DNA of 32,149 nt from Chloroflexota bacterium (GTDB lineage: Bacteria; Chloroflexota; Dehalococcoidia; Lucifugimonadales; Lucifugimonadaceae): positions 1 through 32,149 of the forward strand of contig JABIHL010000148.1 in assembly GCA_018649665.1 (NCBI GenBank), in the 5' to 3' direction. Numbering within the stretch: position 1 is the stretch's first letter; every line of letters starts with the position of its first letter. Positions 2,193 through 22,085 of the stretch are shown piece by piece. A program made the translations under genes and the position numbers. The notes under the pieces are model-generated. The model had not been told where the DNA came from. It made no database searches and worked only from the letters and a program-made list of their open reading frames with translations.

Positions 2193-3473
2193 CTACGATG
2201 GCAGTGATTTCGCCACACGTTCCAACGTCTCTGCGATGTCCGCATCGCTGTGCGCAGTCGAAACGAACCAAGCCTCGAACTGCGACGGCGGCAAGTAAAC
2301 GCCGTTATCGATCATGCCGTGGAAGAACGCTCCGAACGCTTCTCTATCGGTCGCAGAGGCGCTACCCATGTCAGTCACCTCGTTACCCGTGAAGAACACT
2401 GTCATAAGTCCGCACGCACGATTCACCACCGCAGGAACACCGGCTTTGCCAAACACACCAAGAACCCCATCCGCCAGCCGATCGGTCTTAGCCTGAAGCC
2501 GCTCATACACACCCGGCTTCGTCAGTTCATCCAAAGTGGCAATACCGGCCGCCATTGCCACTGGGTTACCAGAAAGAGTTCCAGCCTGATACATAGGTCC
2601 GAGAGGCGAAACTTCGCTCATGATCTCTGCACTCGCTCCGTATGCCCCAACGGGGAATCCACCACCAACTATCTTGCCTAAACAAGTGATATCAGGAGTA
2701 ACCCCGTAAACGCTCTGCGCACCACCAAGTGCAACTCGGAATCCAGTAATGACTTCATCAAAGATAAGCAGTGAACCGTGCTCCGTCGTCAGATCACGCA
2801 ACCCCTCAAGAAATCCTGCTACCGGAGGCACAACACCCATGTTGCCGCCAATAGGCTCAACAATCACCGCAGCGACTTCACCCTTGTTCGCTTCAAATAG
2901 AGCTCGAACCGACTCGACATCATTGAAATCAGCCACCAAAGTGGCTGCCGCATAGTCGGGGTGAACACCAGCTGAAGAAGCGATTCCCTGGTTCGCTAAC
3001 CCTGATCCTGCCTCAACCAGCAACGCGTCCTCATGACCGTGATAGCCACCGTTGAACTTCAGTATCTTGTTCCGACCTGTCTTCGCCCGCGCCAATCGCA
3101 ATGCCGACATCGTTGCTTCAGTACCCGAACTAACGAATCGCACAACCTCAATAGACGGCACGGCATCGACAACACGTCGAGCCATTTCGACTTCCAGTTC
3201 AGTAGGAGCACCGAATGAAGTACCCCTACGAGCAGCATCGACGGCCGCGTCAAGCACAATCGGATTCGCGTGCCCAAGAATCATCGGACCCCAAGAGCAC
3301 ACATAGTCGATCAGTTCGTTATCGTCGGCATCCCATACTCGTGATCCCAATGCCCTCTTAAAGAAGATAGGGTCGCCACCGACCGACCCCCACGCACGCG
3401 CCGGACTATTAACTCCACCAGGAATTAGTGTTTTAGCGTCGCTAAACAGCTTTGCTGACTTTGCGCGGGACAA
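2193..3473 (-). CDS. hemL: Glutamate-1-semialdehyde 2,1-aminomutase
   Basis: A PLP enzyme (426 residues, normal family length) that converts glutamate-1-semialdehyde to 5-aminolevulinate, the second step of C5 tetrapyrrole synthesis in the cytoplasm. Visible family marks are the N-terminal IPGGVNSPARA (17-27), SSGTEA (115-120) which binds the cofactor phosphate, YHGH (144-147), FDEVITGFR (238-246), and the PLP lysine K267 in CLGKIVGGGFPVGAYG. The start is TTG, with a strong GGAGG 6 bases upstream. It lies on the same strand as hemA, which makes its substrate, but a terminator hairpin (3537-3562) separates them. hemL therefore probably has its own promoter or depends on read-through. Confidence 0.97.
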   Translation of the reverse strand: MSRAKSAKLFSDAKTLIPGGVNSPARAWGSVGGDPIFFKRALGSRVWDADDNELIDYVCSWGPMILGHANPIVLDAAVDAARRGTSFGAPTELEVEMARRVVDAVPSIEVVRFVSSGTEATMSALRLARAKTGRNKILKFNGGYHGHEDALLVEAGSGLANQGIASSAGVHPDYAAATLVADFNDVESVRALFEANKGEVAAVIVEPIGGNMGVVPPVAGFLEGLRDLTTEHGSLLIFDEVITGFRVALGGAQSVYGVTPDITCLGKIVGGGFPVGAYGASAEIMSEVSPLGPMYQAGTLSGNPVAMAAGIATLDELTKPGVYERLQAKTDRLADGVLGVFGKAGVPAVVNRACGLMTVFFTGNEVTDMGSASATDREAFGAFFHGMIDNGVYLPPSQFEAWFVSTAHSDADIAETLERVAKSLPS

Positions 3474-3598: not shown

Positions 3599-4909
3599 TT
3601 ACTCGAGTTCGTATTCATCCTGCTCGGCAAGTGCAAAAACCTTCTGAACGGCCTCGGCAGCACTTTCCTCTTCACTTCTCAAGAAGCTAATCGGATCGGC
3701 AAGAATCCGTCGTACAAGCGAACGAGTCATCTTCTCGACAGATACCGCTTGCTTTTCGGTGAGACCATCAAGGCGAGCAAGAGTTTGCTCGACTTCCTCA
3801 CGTCTCATCTGCTCCACACGAGCTCCGAGAGTTCGAATAACTGGCTCGCTCTCGATGCCAGTCAAACGCTCCTTGAAACGACGAACACCATCGTCGATCA
3901 AACCTTGAGCCTCGGCAGCAGCCGATTCACGAATCTCCCAGCTCTCAGCCGACCTCGCCTGGAGTTCGGTAAGGCTAATAAGATTCACGTTTGCAACATC
4001 GCCAGATGTCGACTCAACGTCACGCGGCATACCCAGATCGAGAATGCTGAACTTACGTTCAGGGCGAGCCGACATCGCATTGGCAACAACATCCGCGGTA
4101 ATTACCGAATCAGTTGCAGCTGTGCACGTAATCAAAACATCAGCTTCGATCATCGCCTTTGAAATATCTTCAAATGCAACCTGCGGAGCGCCGAGCTCCT
4201 CAGCGAGAATCCTGCCACGGTTCATCGAACGGCTCGAAACGACAATATCGTCAGCACCGTATCGGGTCAGTGCACGAGCGGTGAGCTTACCCATCTCGCC
4301 AGCACCGACTAATAGCACTCGAAGCCCCTTGAGGTCGCCCAGAGTGTTCTGAAGTTCCTGAACTCCAAGAGAAGAAACCGAAGTTCGATTCCGACCGAGA
4401 TCGGTTTCCTTACGAATCTTTCGGCTAGTTCGTAGAGCTGCGTGGAAAAGTCGTGAAAGAATCGGGTCGACAGATCCGGCTTCACCGGCTGCCTGCATTG
4501 CCCGGGTAACCTGCCCAAGAATCTGAGATTCACCGAGTGCTACCGACTGAAGACCAGCCGTAACACCGAACAAATGCTCAGCTACTTCGTCACCAGTCTT
4601 CGTGTAAATGTAATCACTGATGCCGGTAACACCAGCATGCTCAGGTACGGCATCGATGTACTCGCGAAGCTGGCGCACACCAACTTCAACATCTTCAGCA
4701 ACCGAGTAGATTTCAGTACGGTTGCAGGTAGAAAGAATTACCCCTCCGCCAGCATGTGTCGCTAGTCGCCCAAGGTGTTCCTTGAGGGAGTGAGTTGGAA
4801 CCGCAACGCATTCCAGTATTTCTACTGGTGCGCGGTCGATATTTAGCCCTGCGAGTATAAAATTCAAATTATTAAACGTACCGATAAATGCCCCAGCCGG
4901 TAGATTCAA
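3599..4909 (-). CDS. hemA: Glutamyl-tRNA reductase
   Basis: Reduces glutamyl-tRNA to glutamate-1-semialdehyde with NADPH, the first committed step of C5 tetrapyrrole synthesis. The frame gives 436 residues, typical of the family. The catalytic cysteine is C62 in ILSTCNRTEIY. GESQILGQV (126-134) and the NADPH-binding loop VGAGEMGK (201-208) are intact, and the C-terminal helical dimerisation region is complete. The start is uncertain. The TTG at 4909 adds about 14 residues before the usual NFILAGLNIDRAPVE beginning, while a TTG at 4867 would fit family alignments better but has no clear Shine-Dalgarno. No ATG is available. The gene ends before a terminator (3537-3562). Its product feeds HemL, and the two proteins usually form a complex. 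Confidence 0.96.
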   Translation of the reverse strand: MNLPAGAFIGTFNNLNFILAGLNIDRAPVEILECVAVPTHSLKEHLGRLATHAGGGVILSTCNRTEIYSVAEDVEVGVRQLREYIDAVPEHAGVTGISDYIYTKTGDEVAEHLFGVTAGLQSVALGESQILGQVTRAMQAAGEAGSVDPILSRLFHAALRTSRKIRKETDLGRNRTSVSSLGVQELQNTLGDLKGLRVLLVGAGEMGKLTARALTRYGADDIVVSSRSMNRGRILAEELGAPQVAFEDISKAMIEADVLITCTAATDSVITADVVANAMSARPERKFSILDLGMPRDVESTSGDVANVNLISLTELQARSAESWEIRESAAAEAQGLIDDGVRRFKERLTGIESEPVIRTLGARVEQMRREEVEQTLARLDGLTEKQAVSVEKMTRSLVRRILADPISFLRSEEESAAEAVQKVFALAEQDEYELE

Positions 4910-5089: not shown

Positions 5090-5953
5090 ATGGCTATTCC
5101 ATCAATTATCCCGCCGGCTGATCGCGGATACACAACGCCAGAAATTTTCGTAACAACAGATTGGCTCGTCGATCATATAAATGATCCGAACGTGAGACTT
5201 GTCGATACCGATGTACCTGAAGAGTACGAAAAAGGGCATATCCCTAACTCAGTTAACCCAGTTGACCACTACTACAAAACTTCGCTTGAAGAACGCACTC
5301 ACATACAAAGTCCCGAGCAGTTCGAACAAACAATGGCCGAGCTCGGAATCGATGATGACACGACAGTAGTCGGATACAACCGGGGTGGTGGTGTCTACTC
5401 GTTCCGACTCATGTGGGCGCTCCACTACTACGGACACACGAACGTAAAAATCCTCGACGGCGGACTAGAAAAATGGGTAGCCGAAGGTCGTGAAACTACG
5501 AAAGAGTCATTCACGGCAGCAGGAACAGCAGGGTCGTTTACGGCGAAGGCCAACTCTGAGATATTCGCATCTCGAGAGCGTGTGCTCGACTCTATCGACG
5601 ACAGCTCAACGATCATCCTCGACGTACGTTCCGATGATGAATGGACTGGTGCCAACAAGCGCGGAGGGCCGCGAGGCGGACACATTCCAAGTGCGGTTCA
5701 CTTGGAGTGGACGAACTTCATGACTGAAGGCGATATTCCCGTTCTGAAGACTGCAGAAGAAATTCGCAAACTGCTCTCGGAAGCCGGAGTTACGCCAGAT
5801 AAAAACGTCATTACATACTGACAGGGAGGCATCCGTGCGGCGCACGGATTCTGGACTCTCAAACTAGCCGGATTCGACAAGGTTCGTGACTACGACGGCT
5901 CATGGCGAGAATGGGCTGAAGTGGCATCCTGCCCAATAGAAGCCCTTACATAG
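5090..5953 (+). CDS. Selenocysteine-containing rhodanese-type sulfurtransferase (UGA at 5819-5821 read as Sec)
   Basis: A two-domain thiosulfate/3-mercaptopyruvate sulfurtransferase (COG2897-like), 287 residues if UGA is decoded, which is the normal family length. The first rhodanese domain (about 20-135, with DTDVPEEYEKGHIPNS and LDGGLEKW) is followed by a second (about 165-285, with LDVRSDDEW and GGHIPSAVHLEW). The active-site loop should read YCQGGIRAAH; here it is Y-UGA-QGGIRAAH, with UGA replacing the catalytic Cys at residue 244. Downstream the frame stays open and family-like (GFWTLKLAGFDKV, then DGSWREW) to TAG at 5951. A SECIS-like hairpin starts 9 bases after the UGA. Stopping at UGA would remove the whole active site. 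The ATG at 5090 has no clear Shine-Dalgarno and may be leaderless. Known from the family: persulfide chemistry at this residue. Inferred: selenium chemistry replaces it, and selABCD lie elsewhere. The alternative is a nonsense mutation. Confidence 0.88.
5831..5849 (+). promoter_or_regulatory. Candidate bacterial SECIS element
   Basis: ATCCGTGC (5831-5838) pairs perfectly with GCACGGAT (5842-5849) around the loop GGC. The loop begins 17 bases after the UGA (5819-5821) and its first two bases are G. Bacterial SECIS elements have a stem-loop just downstream of the UGA, with the apical loop roughly 16-37 bases away and a G among the first loop bases. The hairpin sits inside the coding frame (codons IRAAHG), so it is constrained both as protein and as RNA. 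Confidence 0.8.
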
Positions 5954-6182: not shown

Positions 6183-7409
6183 ATGAAGAACTACAAAACT
6201 CTCCTCATATGGTCAGCAGTCGCTGCAATCACTGCTATAGCGGCAGTCGCTTGCGGTGGCGATCTCGATCCAGCAAACGCGCCAACTCAAGTCGTCGTTC
6301 GCCCCACTTCAACCTTAAGCACTGGCACAGACACTCCGCCCGCTACTCTGGCACCGGTTCCCACGGCGACCCGACCTCTCCCATTGCCAACTTATCAAGA
6401 CGGCGTACTAGAAGTTCACGACCCCAACGGATGGCTCAATTCCGAACCGTTCAAAATTGCCGATCAAACTGCTGATAACAAAGTCGTACTCGTCGATTTC
6501 TGGACCTACACGTGCGTCAACTGCATACGGACTCTTCCATTCCTCAAAGAATGGCATGCCAAGTACGCCGATAATGGGCTCGTTATTCTCGGAGTACACA
6601 CGCCAGAGTTCGAATTTGAAGAGCGAATCGACAACGTTGAAGCTGCTATCGCCCGCGAGGGAATCGGCTGGCCAGTCGTGCTTGACAACGAATACGGCAC
6701 ATGGCGCTCGTTCGGCAACCGATATTGGCCTGCAAAATATCTCATCGGTATCGATGGACAACTCACCTATCGGCATTTCGGCGAAGGTTCCTACGTCGAA
6801 ACTGAACACGCTATTCGTGATGCATTAACTGAAGCAGGCTGGGACGTTTCTAGTATTCCAATCGGCAGCATCAACTCCGCTGACCGCGACCCAGTCGCTG
6901 ATCGAGTCACTCGTGAGCTTTATGCAGGATACGAACGAAATTACACACAGTCTGGACTGTACGCAGGCCAGGATCAGTACTACATCGAACCCGATTCCAC
7001 TCGGGAGTATGTTGACGACGAAAATTACACTCCCCAGCAGTGGTATCTACAGGGATCGTGGACGAACGGACCTGAATCTATCACTCACGCCCGCTCCACC
7101 AGCAATCTCGAAGATTACATAGCTTTCCAGTTCGTTGGTAGAAGCGCCAACGTAGTAGTCACTCCCTCTGGAACCGAGCCATACGACGTCTACATTGAAA
7201 TCGACGGGCGCCCGCTCAAAGCAGACGAAGCTGGATTGGACGTATTATTTGGCGAAGACGGTCGTTCGTACTTCACAGTGACAGAACCTCGCCTATACGC
7301 CTTTCTCGAAACACCTGTATTTGGTGAGCACATCGTCAAGCTCGCCTCCGACTCTGACGACTTCGCGATATTCGCGTTCACCTTCGGCGTCAATGAGAGT
7401 GGAATTTAG
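6183..7409 (+). CDS. Thioredoxin-fold lipoprotein, DipZ/TlpA-like
   Basis: A 408-residue envelope thiol-disulfide protein. The lipoprotein signal has the lipidated Cys at 24 (AVACGGD), followed by a Thr/Pro-rich linker to about residue 70. The thioredoxin domain (about 75-225) has the redox pair C111-V-N-C114 in FWTYTCVNCIRTLP, then GVHTPEFEFE and YWPAKYLIG, typical of the DipZ/NHL-type TlpA group. The C-terminal part (about 240-400) resembles the beta-rich domain that follows thioredoxin in DipZ proteins (YAGYERNY, then VYIEIDGRPL). It lies downstream of the selenium sulfurtransferase and overlaps the next gene by one base (TAGTG), so the two lipoproteins are almost surely co-translated. The likely role is thiol reduction or disulfide exchange on extracytoplasmic proteins. 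The ATG start is set by the signal peptide; there is no strong Shine-Dalgarno. Confidence 0.85.
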   Translation: MKNYKTLLIWSAVAAITAIAAVACGGDLDPANAPTQVVVRPTSTLSTGTDTPPATLAPVPTATRPLPLPTYQDGVLEVHDPNGWLNSEPFKIADQTADNKVVLVDFWTYTCVNCIRTLPFLKEWHAKYADNGLVILGVHTPEFEFEERIDNVEAAIAREGIGWPVVLDNEYGTWRSFGNRYWPAKYLIGIDGQLTYRHFGEGSYVETEHAIRDALTEAGWDVSSIPIGSINSADRDPVADRVTRELYAGYERNYTQSGLYAGQDQYYIEPDSTREYVDDENYTPQQWYLQGSWTNGPESITHARSTSNLEDYIAFQFVGRSANVVVTPSGTEPYDVYIEIDGRPLKADEAGLDVLFGEDGRSYFTVTEPRLYAFLETPVFGEHIVKLASDSDDFAIFAFTFGVNESGI

Positions 7410-20849: not shown

Positions 20850-22085
20850 ATGTTCAAGCAACTTCAGCTCGGTGCCAGCGATCCAGTGAGAGCAACGCGG
20901 TACAAATATGCTGCATTGATACTCGCCACAGTTCTGTTCACGATTTTGGTGATCGGAAATGCTATCGACCCACCCGAATCCGGCAGTATCTACAAACAAG
21001 AAGACGCCCTGGGTTACTTTTTCGCAATTGCACAAGCCCTCCCACTGCTCTTTGTTCTCAGATGGCCAATCCCTGCCTTCACAACGATTATGGCTTCATT
21101 CACGGTCCATACCGGTTTAGGACACGAAACTATCTGGGTAGTTCAGTTCACCGCATTGCTCTCGTTTTTCATCGCAGTTACTCAAGGTGGAGATCGACAA
21201 TCGATTCTTGCGCTGATTATCGCCAATGCGGGTGCGATAGTAGCATTCGGAATAGTTGGCAAAAACCCTCAATTCGGCAACGTAGTAATGCAGGTAATGC
21301 TGTTCGGGGGATTATGGATCGTCGCTAATTTGTTCCGCACAGGTCGACTTAGCCTTGAATCAGCAAAGCAAGTGGTTGTTGAACTTGAGGCCGATCAAGC
21401 TCGACTCGCCCGTGAGGCTGTAAATAGCGAGCGAGTTCGAATTGCTCGTGAACTTCACGACGTTCTCGGGCACACTTTGAATCTCGTCGTAATCCAAGCT
21501 GGTGCTGCCCAACGGGTGTATGAATCGTCACCTGAAAAAGCACTCGAAGCGGTGAAATCTATCGAATCTACGAGTCGACAAGCACTTTCAGATGTCGACC
21601 GCATGCTCGGGATCCTTCGTGACCCCGACGAGCCTGCCAACACTGCGCCATCACTGGAAGCACGGCCTTCACTCAGTCGAATAAATAAGCTTGTGTCTGA
21701 ACTGGCGTCAACAGGCCAAACTATCGAATTCACTATTTCAGGACACGAAAGTAAACTCGCTGCCAGTACCGATCTCACAGCGTACCGGGTCGTCCAAGAA
21801 GCACTCACCAATGTAATGACCCACGCAGCGGGATCGAAAGCCCGAGTTGATATCGATTATGGTGATAACCAACTAGAAGTTTCCGTTACCAACGATGGAT
21901 CAGGAATCGACAAATTGGCTGATCGCAAAAGCGGAGGCCGAGGAATAGTTGGCATGCGCGAGCGCACATCACTATTCGGCGGAAAGTTCGAAGCAGGCAG
22001 CACCGATGATGGTGGATGGAGAGTCAACGCTACCTTCCCACTCAATCGCAACAATACCGTTGACGAATCAGGAGATTCAGAATGA
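20850..22085 (+). CDS. Sensor histidine kinase, NarL-partner type (HisKA_3; LiaS/DesK-like)
   Basis: A 411-residue membrane kinase. About five membrane helices (20-38, 55-72, 95-112, 117-136, 145-163) form a loopless sensor with little extracellular domain, as in intramembrane-sensing kinases that detect envelope or antibiotic stress. A coiled linker (165-192) leads to the HisKA_3 box RIARELHDVLGHTLN, with phospho-acceptor H203. The ATPase domain follows, with AYRVVQEALTNVMTHA (N box) and GGRGIVGMRER (G box). The stop overlaps the response regulator start (ATGA). The pair stands directly upstream of two exporters and is the obvious candidate for their control. ATG start with AGGTAGA about 12 bases upstream. 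Confidence 0.95.
   Translation: MFKQLQLGASDPVRATRYKYAALILATVLFTILVIGNAIDPPESGSIYKQEDALGYFFAIAQALPLLFVLRWPIPAFTTIMASFTVHTGLGHETIWVVQFTALLSFFIAVTQGGDRQSILALIIANAGAIVAFGIVGKNPQFGNVVMQVMLFGGLWIVANLFRTGRLSLESAKQVVVELEADQARLAREAVNSERVRIARELHDVLGHTLNLVVIQAGAAQRVYESSPEKALEAVKSIESTSRQALSDVDRMLGILRDPDEPANTAPSLEARPSLSRINKLVSELASTGQTIEFTISGHESKLAASTDLTAYRVVQEALTNVMTHAAGSKARVDIDYGDNQLEVSVTNDGSGIDKLADRKSGGRGIVGMRERTSLFGGKFEAGSTDDGGWRVNATFPLNRNNTVDESGDSE

Follow-up and report, generated by a model that had tools for sequence, protein, structure and literature searches.

Rhodanese-related sulfurtransferases predicted to carry selenocysteine (Sec) have been in print since the Sargasso Sea study of 2005, which reported three selenoproteins of this type under COG2897 and a SECIS for one of them (PMC1088965), and the GOS study of 2008 listed eight selenoproteins under cd01449 and one under COG2897 (PMC2398784). 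The original prediction likewise mentioned sulfurtransferase selenoproteins reported from marine metagenomes. The rhodanese-related sulfurtransferase selenoprotein is also listed, with example accessions, in reviews (PMC9312934, PMC13188914), and deposited records of the COG2897 or form 4 type include MQG53192.1, MCY3690685.1, and AACY01016424. On our reading of a shared reference, the group termed “rhodanese-like form 4, UxxG” is the same family as COG2897 (SseA)/cd01449. The protein described here resembles that form in its rhodanese domain, in the position of Sec at the Cys site, in its marine source, in the SECIS that follows the UGA, and in the UxxG motif (U244-Q-G-G247; motif as given in PMC13188914). 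The likeness is one of description: as presented in these sources, the published COG2897/cd01449 records name no organism, whereas the host here belongs to SAR202 and has a cultured relative. The kind of protein has been known since 2005, and what is added here is mainly the host lineage and detail. A selenoprotein family of the metagenome era thereby gains a named host lineage, one that is abundant in the deep ocean and now in culture, and the protein and its chemistry therefore become testable. SAR202 has been discussed for its sulfur cycling, rhodanese included (PMC5864207), and a sponge-symbiont paper notes SelA and SelB in symbiont bins and mentions SAR202 and selenocysteine (PMC5649159). 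A search over part of the literature found no paper joining SAR202 and selenoprotein, and the words “seleno” and “selenium” are absent from the main text of the paper on the SAR202 isolate (PMC10444878).

The window, the whole 32,149-nucleotide stretch of DNA analyzed here, is contig C30 of a bin (G000) of 2.65 Mb in 180 contigs, with 85.97% completeness and 3.65% contamination. The organism belongs to SAR202; its relatives include MAGs named “SAR202 cluster bacterium” and an isolate assigned to SAR202 group Ia (PMC10444878), Candidatus Lucifugimonas marina, whose orthologue (CP046147.1, at about 2,759,373-2,760,233) is 78% identical to the rhodanese protein of the window. Reading of the frame confirmed the predicted layout, an ATG at 5090 followed by 243 codons, a TGA at 5819-5821, 43 further open codons, and a TAG at 5951-5953, giving 287 residues with the in-frame stop at the catalytic Cys site. 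Specifically, the stop falls between VITY and QGGIRAAHG, the position of the rhodanese catalytic loop. The read-through frame matches Pfam Rhodanese (PF00581) in two stretches (E 2e-43), such that the protein has two rhodanese domains, the second of which holds the catalytic residue. Gene callers that halt at UGA would drop the active site of this SAR202 rhodanese.

Table 1. Positions of the rhodanese gene, its putative recoding signals, and its neighbors in the window
Feature	Coordinates	Strand	Basis
hemL, glutamate-1-semialdehyde aminomutase	2193..3473	-	TIGR00713 589.8 bits, over cut-off; synteny
hemA, glutamyl-tRNA reductase, divergent neighbor	3599..4909	-	TIGR01035 314.8 bits, over cut-off; synteny
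Tandem-domain rhodanese of 287 residues, predicted selenoprotein (Sec244)	5090..5953	+	Frame, Pfam, AlphaFold2
UGA codon predicted to be read as selenocysteine, residue 244, loop UQGGIR	5819..5821	+	TGA/Cys-only homologue codons
SECIS-type hairpin, stem 5831-5838 / 5842-5849, apical loop GGC 5839-5841	5831..5849	+	Fold, conservation
Redoxin / Thioredoxin_10 protein, ResA-like	6183..7409	+	Pfam; NCBIfam ResA 40.8 bits vs cut-off 170

The hemA and hemL genes mark a conserved gene order around the rhodanese, and the redoxin gene adjoins it in seven of the nine genus loci where this position is visible, being absent there in L060 and L067. A second copy in the same bin lies on contig C67 (locus L113, 1-6001), within a hemL-hemA-rhodanese-redoxin block whose rhodanese is at 78% identity. 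It was considered as a paralogue and rejected, the block being collinear with the window over ~6 kb that include hemL and hemA. Because it is collinear and nearer to L. marina (81.5% nucleotide identity over the block vs 75.5% to the window), contig C67 probably belongs to a related species within the bin.

Codon 244 was followed through homologues from 76 genomes of one family and 57 further contig loci. Five of these loci (L108-L112) had no match at E 1e-10 and were left out, as was L147, which stops short of the site. The codon was read in 118 rows, which reduce to 86 distinct sequences when near-copies with a common 120 nt are counted once. Of these, 44 have TGA at the codon and the other 42 a Cys codon, TGT or TGC, with no third state; the in-frame UGA thus aligns with Cys in homologues, as had been predicted. 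Counted by genome, the TGA form occurs in 39 of the 76 and the Cys form in 22, and no orthologue exceeds the limit in the remaining 15. The TGA form occupies genera g1, g3, g7, g8, g9, g11, and g12, and the Cys form genera g2, g5, g6, and g10, plus a single genome (G035) within g8. In the genus of the window, 18 of the 19 genomes, including the single-contig isolate Ca. L. marina, have a TGA-bearing orthologue, and the 19th (G051) has just a 33% paralogue above the limit. The pattern named beforehand as one that would count against a selenoprotein, close relatives with a normal stop and unconserved sequence downstream, is absent, the C-terminus being conserved. The identical TGA recurs across many separate assemblies. 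All 273 matching plasmid records are below 60% identity.

Several more distant sequences also have TGA at the site. In G003, whose main orthologue is a Cys form, a 36% homologue (L146) also carries TGA there, together with a hairpin that is built in the same way (seven of eight pairs, loop GTC) and differs in sequence. Two divergent rhodaneses, from a Fusobacteriaceae MAG (L107, 28%) and a Planctomycetota MAG (L091, 32%), align a TGA with the catalytic codon; neither shows the SAR202-type hairpin (2 and 4 of 8 pairs, respectively). A 48% homologue in a MAG labeled Deltaproteobacteria (L087) has both the TGA and the same hairpin, and it groups with a Dehalococcoidia MAG in the tree, which suggests transfer or a mislabeled contig.

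The original prediction also took the open, family-like sequence beyond the UGA as a sign of Sec. As to openness, an open run of at least 43 codons follows 15% of the window's 1223 TGA triplets, counted in any frame, and frame length was for this reason discarded as evidence. The conservation part of the argument stands. Median dN/dS over 19 distinct genus-level sequences is 0.067 downstream of the TGA (133 of 153 pairs usable), or 0.069 with the SECIS region removed (67 of 153 pairs usable), and 0.093 for the 100 codons that precede the TGA (75 of 171 pairs with usable dS). The sequence downstream of the UGA is under purifying selection. A frame arising by chance is countered by the Pfam Rhodanese match, by this selection, and by the conserved hairpin that follows the TGA.

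That hairpin has a stem of 8 bp and a spacing of 17 nt from the UGA to its loop, and a 50-nt segment surrounding the UGA has a folding energy of -16.9 kcal/mol (z -2.46). The limits given for a bacterial SECIS are a loop of 3-9 nt with G in the first two loop positions, a stem of 4-16 bp, a spacing of 16-37 nt, and an MFE of at most -7.5 (PMC13188914); checked by hand, the hairpin lies within every one of them. Conservation was assessed without the 23 of 86 homologues that score below 200 bits (19 Cys and four TGA sequences: L146, L091, L145, and L107). All 40 distinct Sec sequences form at least seven of the eight pairs, and 33 of them form every pair; none of the 23 Cys sequences reaches seven, the count there being three to six. 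The hairpin codons are frozen in the Sec forms (CAG 40/40, CGT 39/40, GCG 40/40, a further GCG in 33/33 where the residue is Ala, and CAC 38/40) and variable in the Cys forms, and codons -12 to -7 have a synonymous entropy near the maximum. No compensatory change was found in the hairpin within the family set, where column shuffles pair as well, so that this set on its own shows conservation of the hairpin and not pairing. Pairing rests on the frozen codons, on the difference between Sec and Cys forms, and on a small number of compensated changes at one pair across the order.

The latter came from R1, a search model of the SECIS region that includes the UGA and scores 68.3 bits at the hairpin of the window. 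Of 250 genomes in the order, 147 have an R1 match at E up to 1e-4; the family accounts for 41, among them two Cys genomes, G019 and G035. Outside the family, 40 regions were fetched from the 106 genomes with a match; 39 yielded rhodanese rows, 41 in number, and the remaining region (L210) gave none. Every one of the 41 has TGA at the site, a result that depends in part on R1, since the model itself contains the UGA. Over 65 distinct Sec sequences from within and outside the family, pair 14-28 (counting the U of UGA as 0) is C-G in 56, G-C in three, A-U in one, U-G in one, and broken in four. The outermost pair is formed in just five of 39 sequences outside the family, its neighbor fails to pair in 13 of 65, and little variation is seen in the inner five. 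Across the order, covariation is slight and confined to one pair, and the core comprises about six or seven pairs. Within the G000 bin, R1 finds only the window gene and its collinear copy (E below 0.01), and it therefore does not reveal the rest of the selenoproteome.

The machinery for Sec insertion, proposed at the outset as a check, is present in full in the bin: a tRNA-Sec with anticodon tca on contig C144 (66.4 bits), selA (529 bits), selB (320 bits), and selD (366 bits). Another tRNA-Sec match over the cut-off, on contig C20, was set aside as a tRNA-Ser identified by ARAGORN. Because the bin is mixed, its sel genes cannot each be tied to the rhodanese contig with certainty; the isolate genome of Ca. 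L. marina (G041, matched to CP046147.1 by coordinates) also has tRNA-Sec, selA, selB, and selD. A tRNA-Sec was likewise found in G008, which has the TGA form, and in G007, which has the Cys form. The selD gene (G000:C168:19179-20105) contains one in-frame TGA and therefore looks like a selenoprotein gene too; the in-frame TGA is also seen in most genomes of the family that have selD. Among the 39 TGA genomes, selB is over the cut-off in 39, selA in 37, and selD in 36, and none lacks all three; the two absences of selA and three of selD may reflect incompleteness. In the 22 Cys genomes the counts are 12 for selA, 13 for selB, and 16 for selD, with none of the three in six, and in the 15 genomes without an orthologue they are four, three, and four, with none in 10. 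The dependence is one-way, in that no TGA form occurs without machinery and many Cys forms occur with it; Fisher values for this link are descriptive only, the genomes being related. Collectively, the sel genes, the exchange of TGA with Cys codons, the hairpin, and the purifying selection uphold the original reading, and the rhodanese at 5090-5953 is very probably a selenoprotein, as judged from its sequence and that of its relatives.

Exchange between Sec and Cys was assessed on a rapidly built maximum-likelihood tree covering 82 rows, with codon 244 masked, midpoint rooting, and several long-branch rows. The tree requires at least seven Sec/Cys changes, three of which are forced by well-supported branches. 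The sequence L049 (G035), with TGC at the codon, is placed among Sec sequences, scores 35.5 bits with R1, and forms six of the eight hairpin pairs. The pair count alone is no sign of hairpin decay, because another Cys form, L050, forms six of eight as well; an R1 match (E 2.4e-5) also occurs somewhere in G019, the genome of L050. From its SECIS-like sequence and its place in the tree, L049 probably represents a recent change from Sec to Cys. The family thus offers a natural series in which one enzyme occurs as Sec and Cys forms, with the SECIS hairpin only in the Sec forms.

A rhodanese loads sulfane sulfur onto its catalytic Cys, and a thiol or cyanide then serves as the acceptor. An AlphaFold2 model built from 28 sequences (mean pLDDT 92.1, pTM 0.91) predicts a fold like that of thiosulfate sulfurtransferases, in which the catalytic loop, between a strand (239-243) and a helix (248-259), contains residue 244. 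The first Foldseek matches are the Thermus rhodanese 1uar and the mycobacterial CysA3, SseA, and CysA2, and the sequence search agrees. The Thermus protein has the same two-domain fold (TM 0.85/0.89), with its catalytic Cys aligned with residue 244; in 1uar and in Mycobacterium CysA2, CysA3, and SseA, which were the structural alignments listed first (29-34% identity), Cys stands where the window protein is predicted to have Sec. Two NCBIfam models share the common rhodanese domain with the protein, which scores far below their cut-offs: the rhodanese selenoprotein model rhodanese_LYCAU (NF041203; 36.5/115 bits) and ExtH, a rhodanese of selenite/tellurite reduction (NF040901; 63.5/200 bits).

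We propose that SelB carrying Sec-tRNA-Sec would bind the SECIS hairpin, and that the ribosome would read the UGA at 5819-5821 as selenocysteine. The product would be a two-domain rhodanese with Sec244 in the UQGGIR loop of its C-terminal domain, between strand and helix. Its selenolate would most likely take the sulfane sulfur of thiosulfate or a persulfide, hold it as an enzyme selenosulfide (Se-S), and hand it on to a thioredoxin-like protein or another thiol acceptor; the neighboring redoxin is a possible thiol partner. Transfer of sulfur from thiosulfate or a persulfide is the reaction we favor, with some reserve. A donor of the thiosulfate type is suggested by the nearest relatives and by the loop, since UQGGIR aligns with CRIAER of 1uar and CRIGER of 8k55. 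It is less probable, though to be reckoned with, that the selenoprotein has another reaction and uses 3-mercaptopyruvate or serves as a redox enzyme. The best NCBIfam model is indeed 3-mercaptopyruvate sulfurtransferase (NF008557), at 141.6 bits against a cut-off of 250, and the E. coli and human 3-MST structures are also near in fold; however, the proteins nearest in sequence and fold bear the names rhodanese or thiosulfate sulfurtransferase, and the aligned CRIAER and CRIGER loops are unlike that of 3-MST, which is CGSGVT.

A role as a selenium carrier, in which the enzyme would bind selenium from selenite and glutathione and deliver it to SelD, seems improbable. A perselenide of rhodanese was reported to arise from selenite and GSH (Ogasawara 2001, cited in PMC11327102 and PMC10298544), and the in-frame TGA of the SelD gene in the bin would fit such a role. 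However, no sel genes adjoin the rhodanese in the window, and six genomes without selA, selB, and selD keep the Cys form, which speaks for a function in sulfur metabolism. An extended version of the idea, that the Sec-rhodanese of SAR202 is a chalcogen carrier feeding a UGA-bearing SelD and that the Cys versions are later losses of Sec as the use of selenium shrank or ended, is speculative and likewise doubtful.

Reading of the UGA as an amino acid through genome-wide reassignment, or by plain leaky read-through, is very improbable. Few frames of the window end in TGA, which terminates one of the 21 other ORFs (20850-22085), or one of the 22 ORFs checked in all; this rarity would suit reassignment. 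However, the other 20 reach TAA or TAG without encountering TGA, unlike what is expected of a common sense codon; as the 21 ORFs were picked as table-11 frames, they are free of inner TGA by construction, and their zero inner TGAs were not used as evidence. Moreover, eight of the 19 orthologues in the genus terminate at TGA, seven of these at the same length, and leaky read-through leaves both the replacement of TGA by Cys codons only and the hairpin unexplained. A pseudogene, nonsense mutation, or assembly error, by which the gene would be a Cys rhodanese ending at 5821, could appeal to the window coming from a MAG with some bin mixture and to table 11 reading a stop, but can be dismissed with near certainty given TGA at that codon in 44 of 86 distinct homologues, purifying selection past it, and a hairpin confined to the TGA forms.

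Two minor observations concern the window at large. Further candidates for UGA read-through were listed within it and judged by eye. In addition, 30-758 on the minus strand encodes an archaeal-type flagellin domain (PF01917, E 9.4e-15), here in a Chloroflexota bin.
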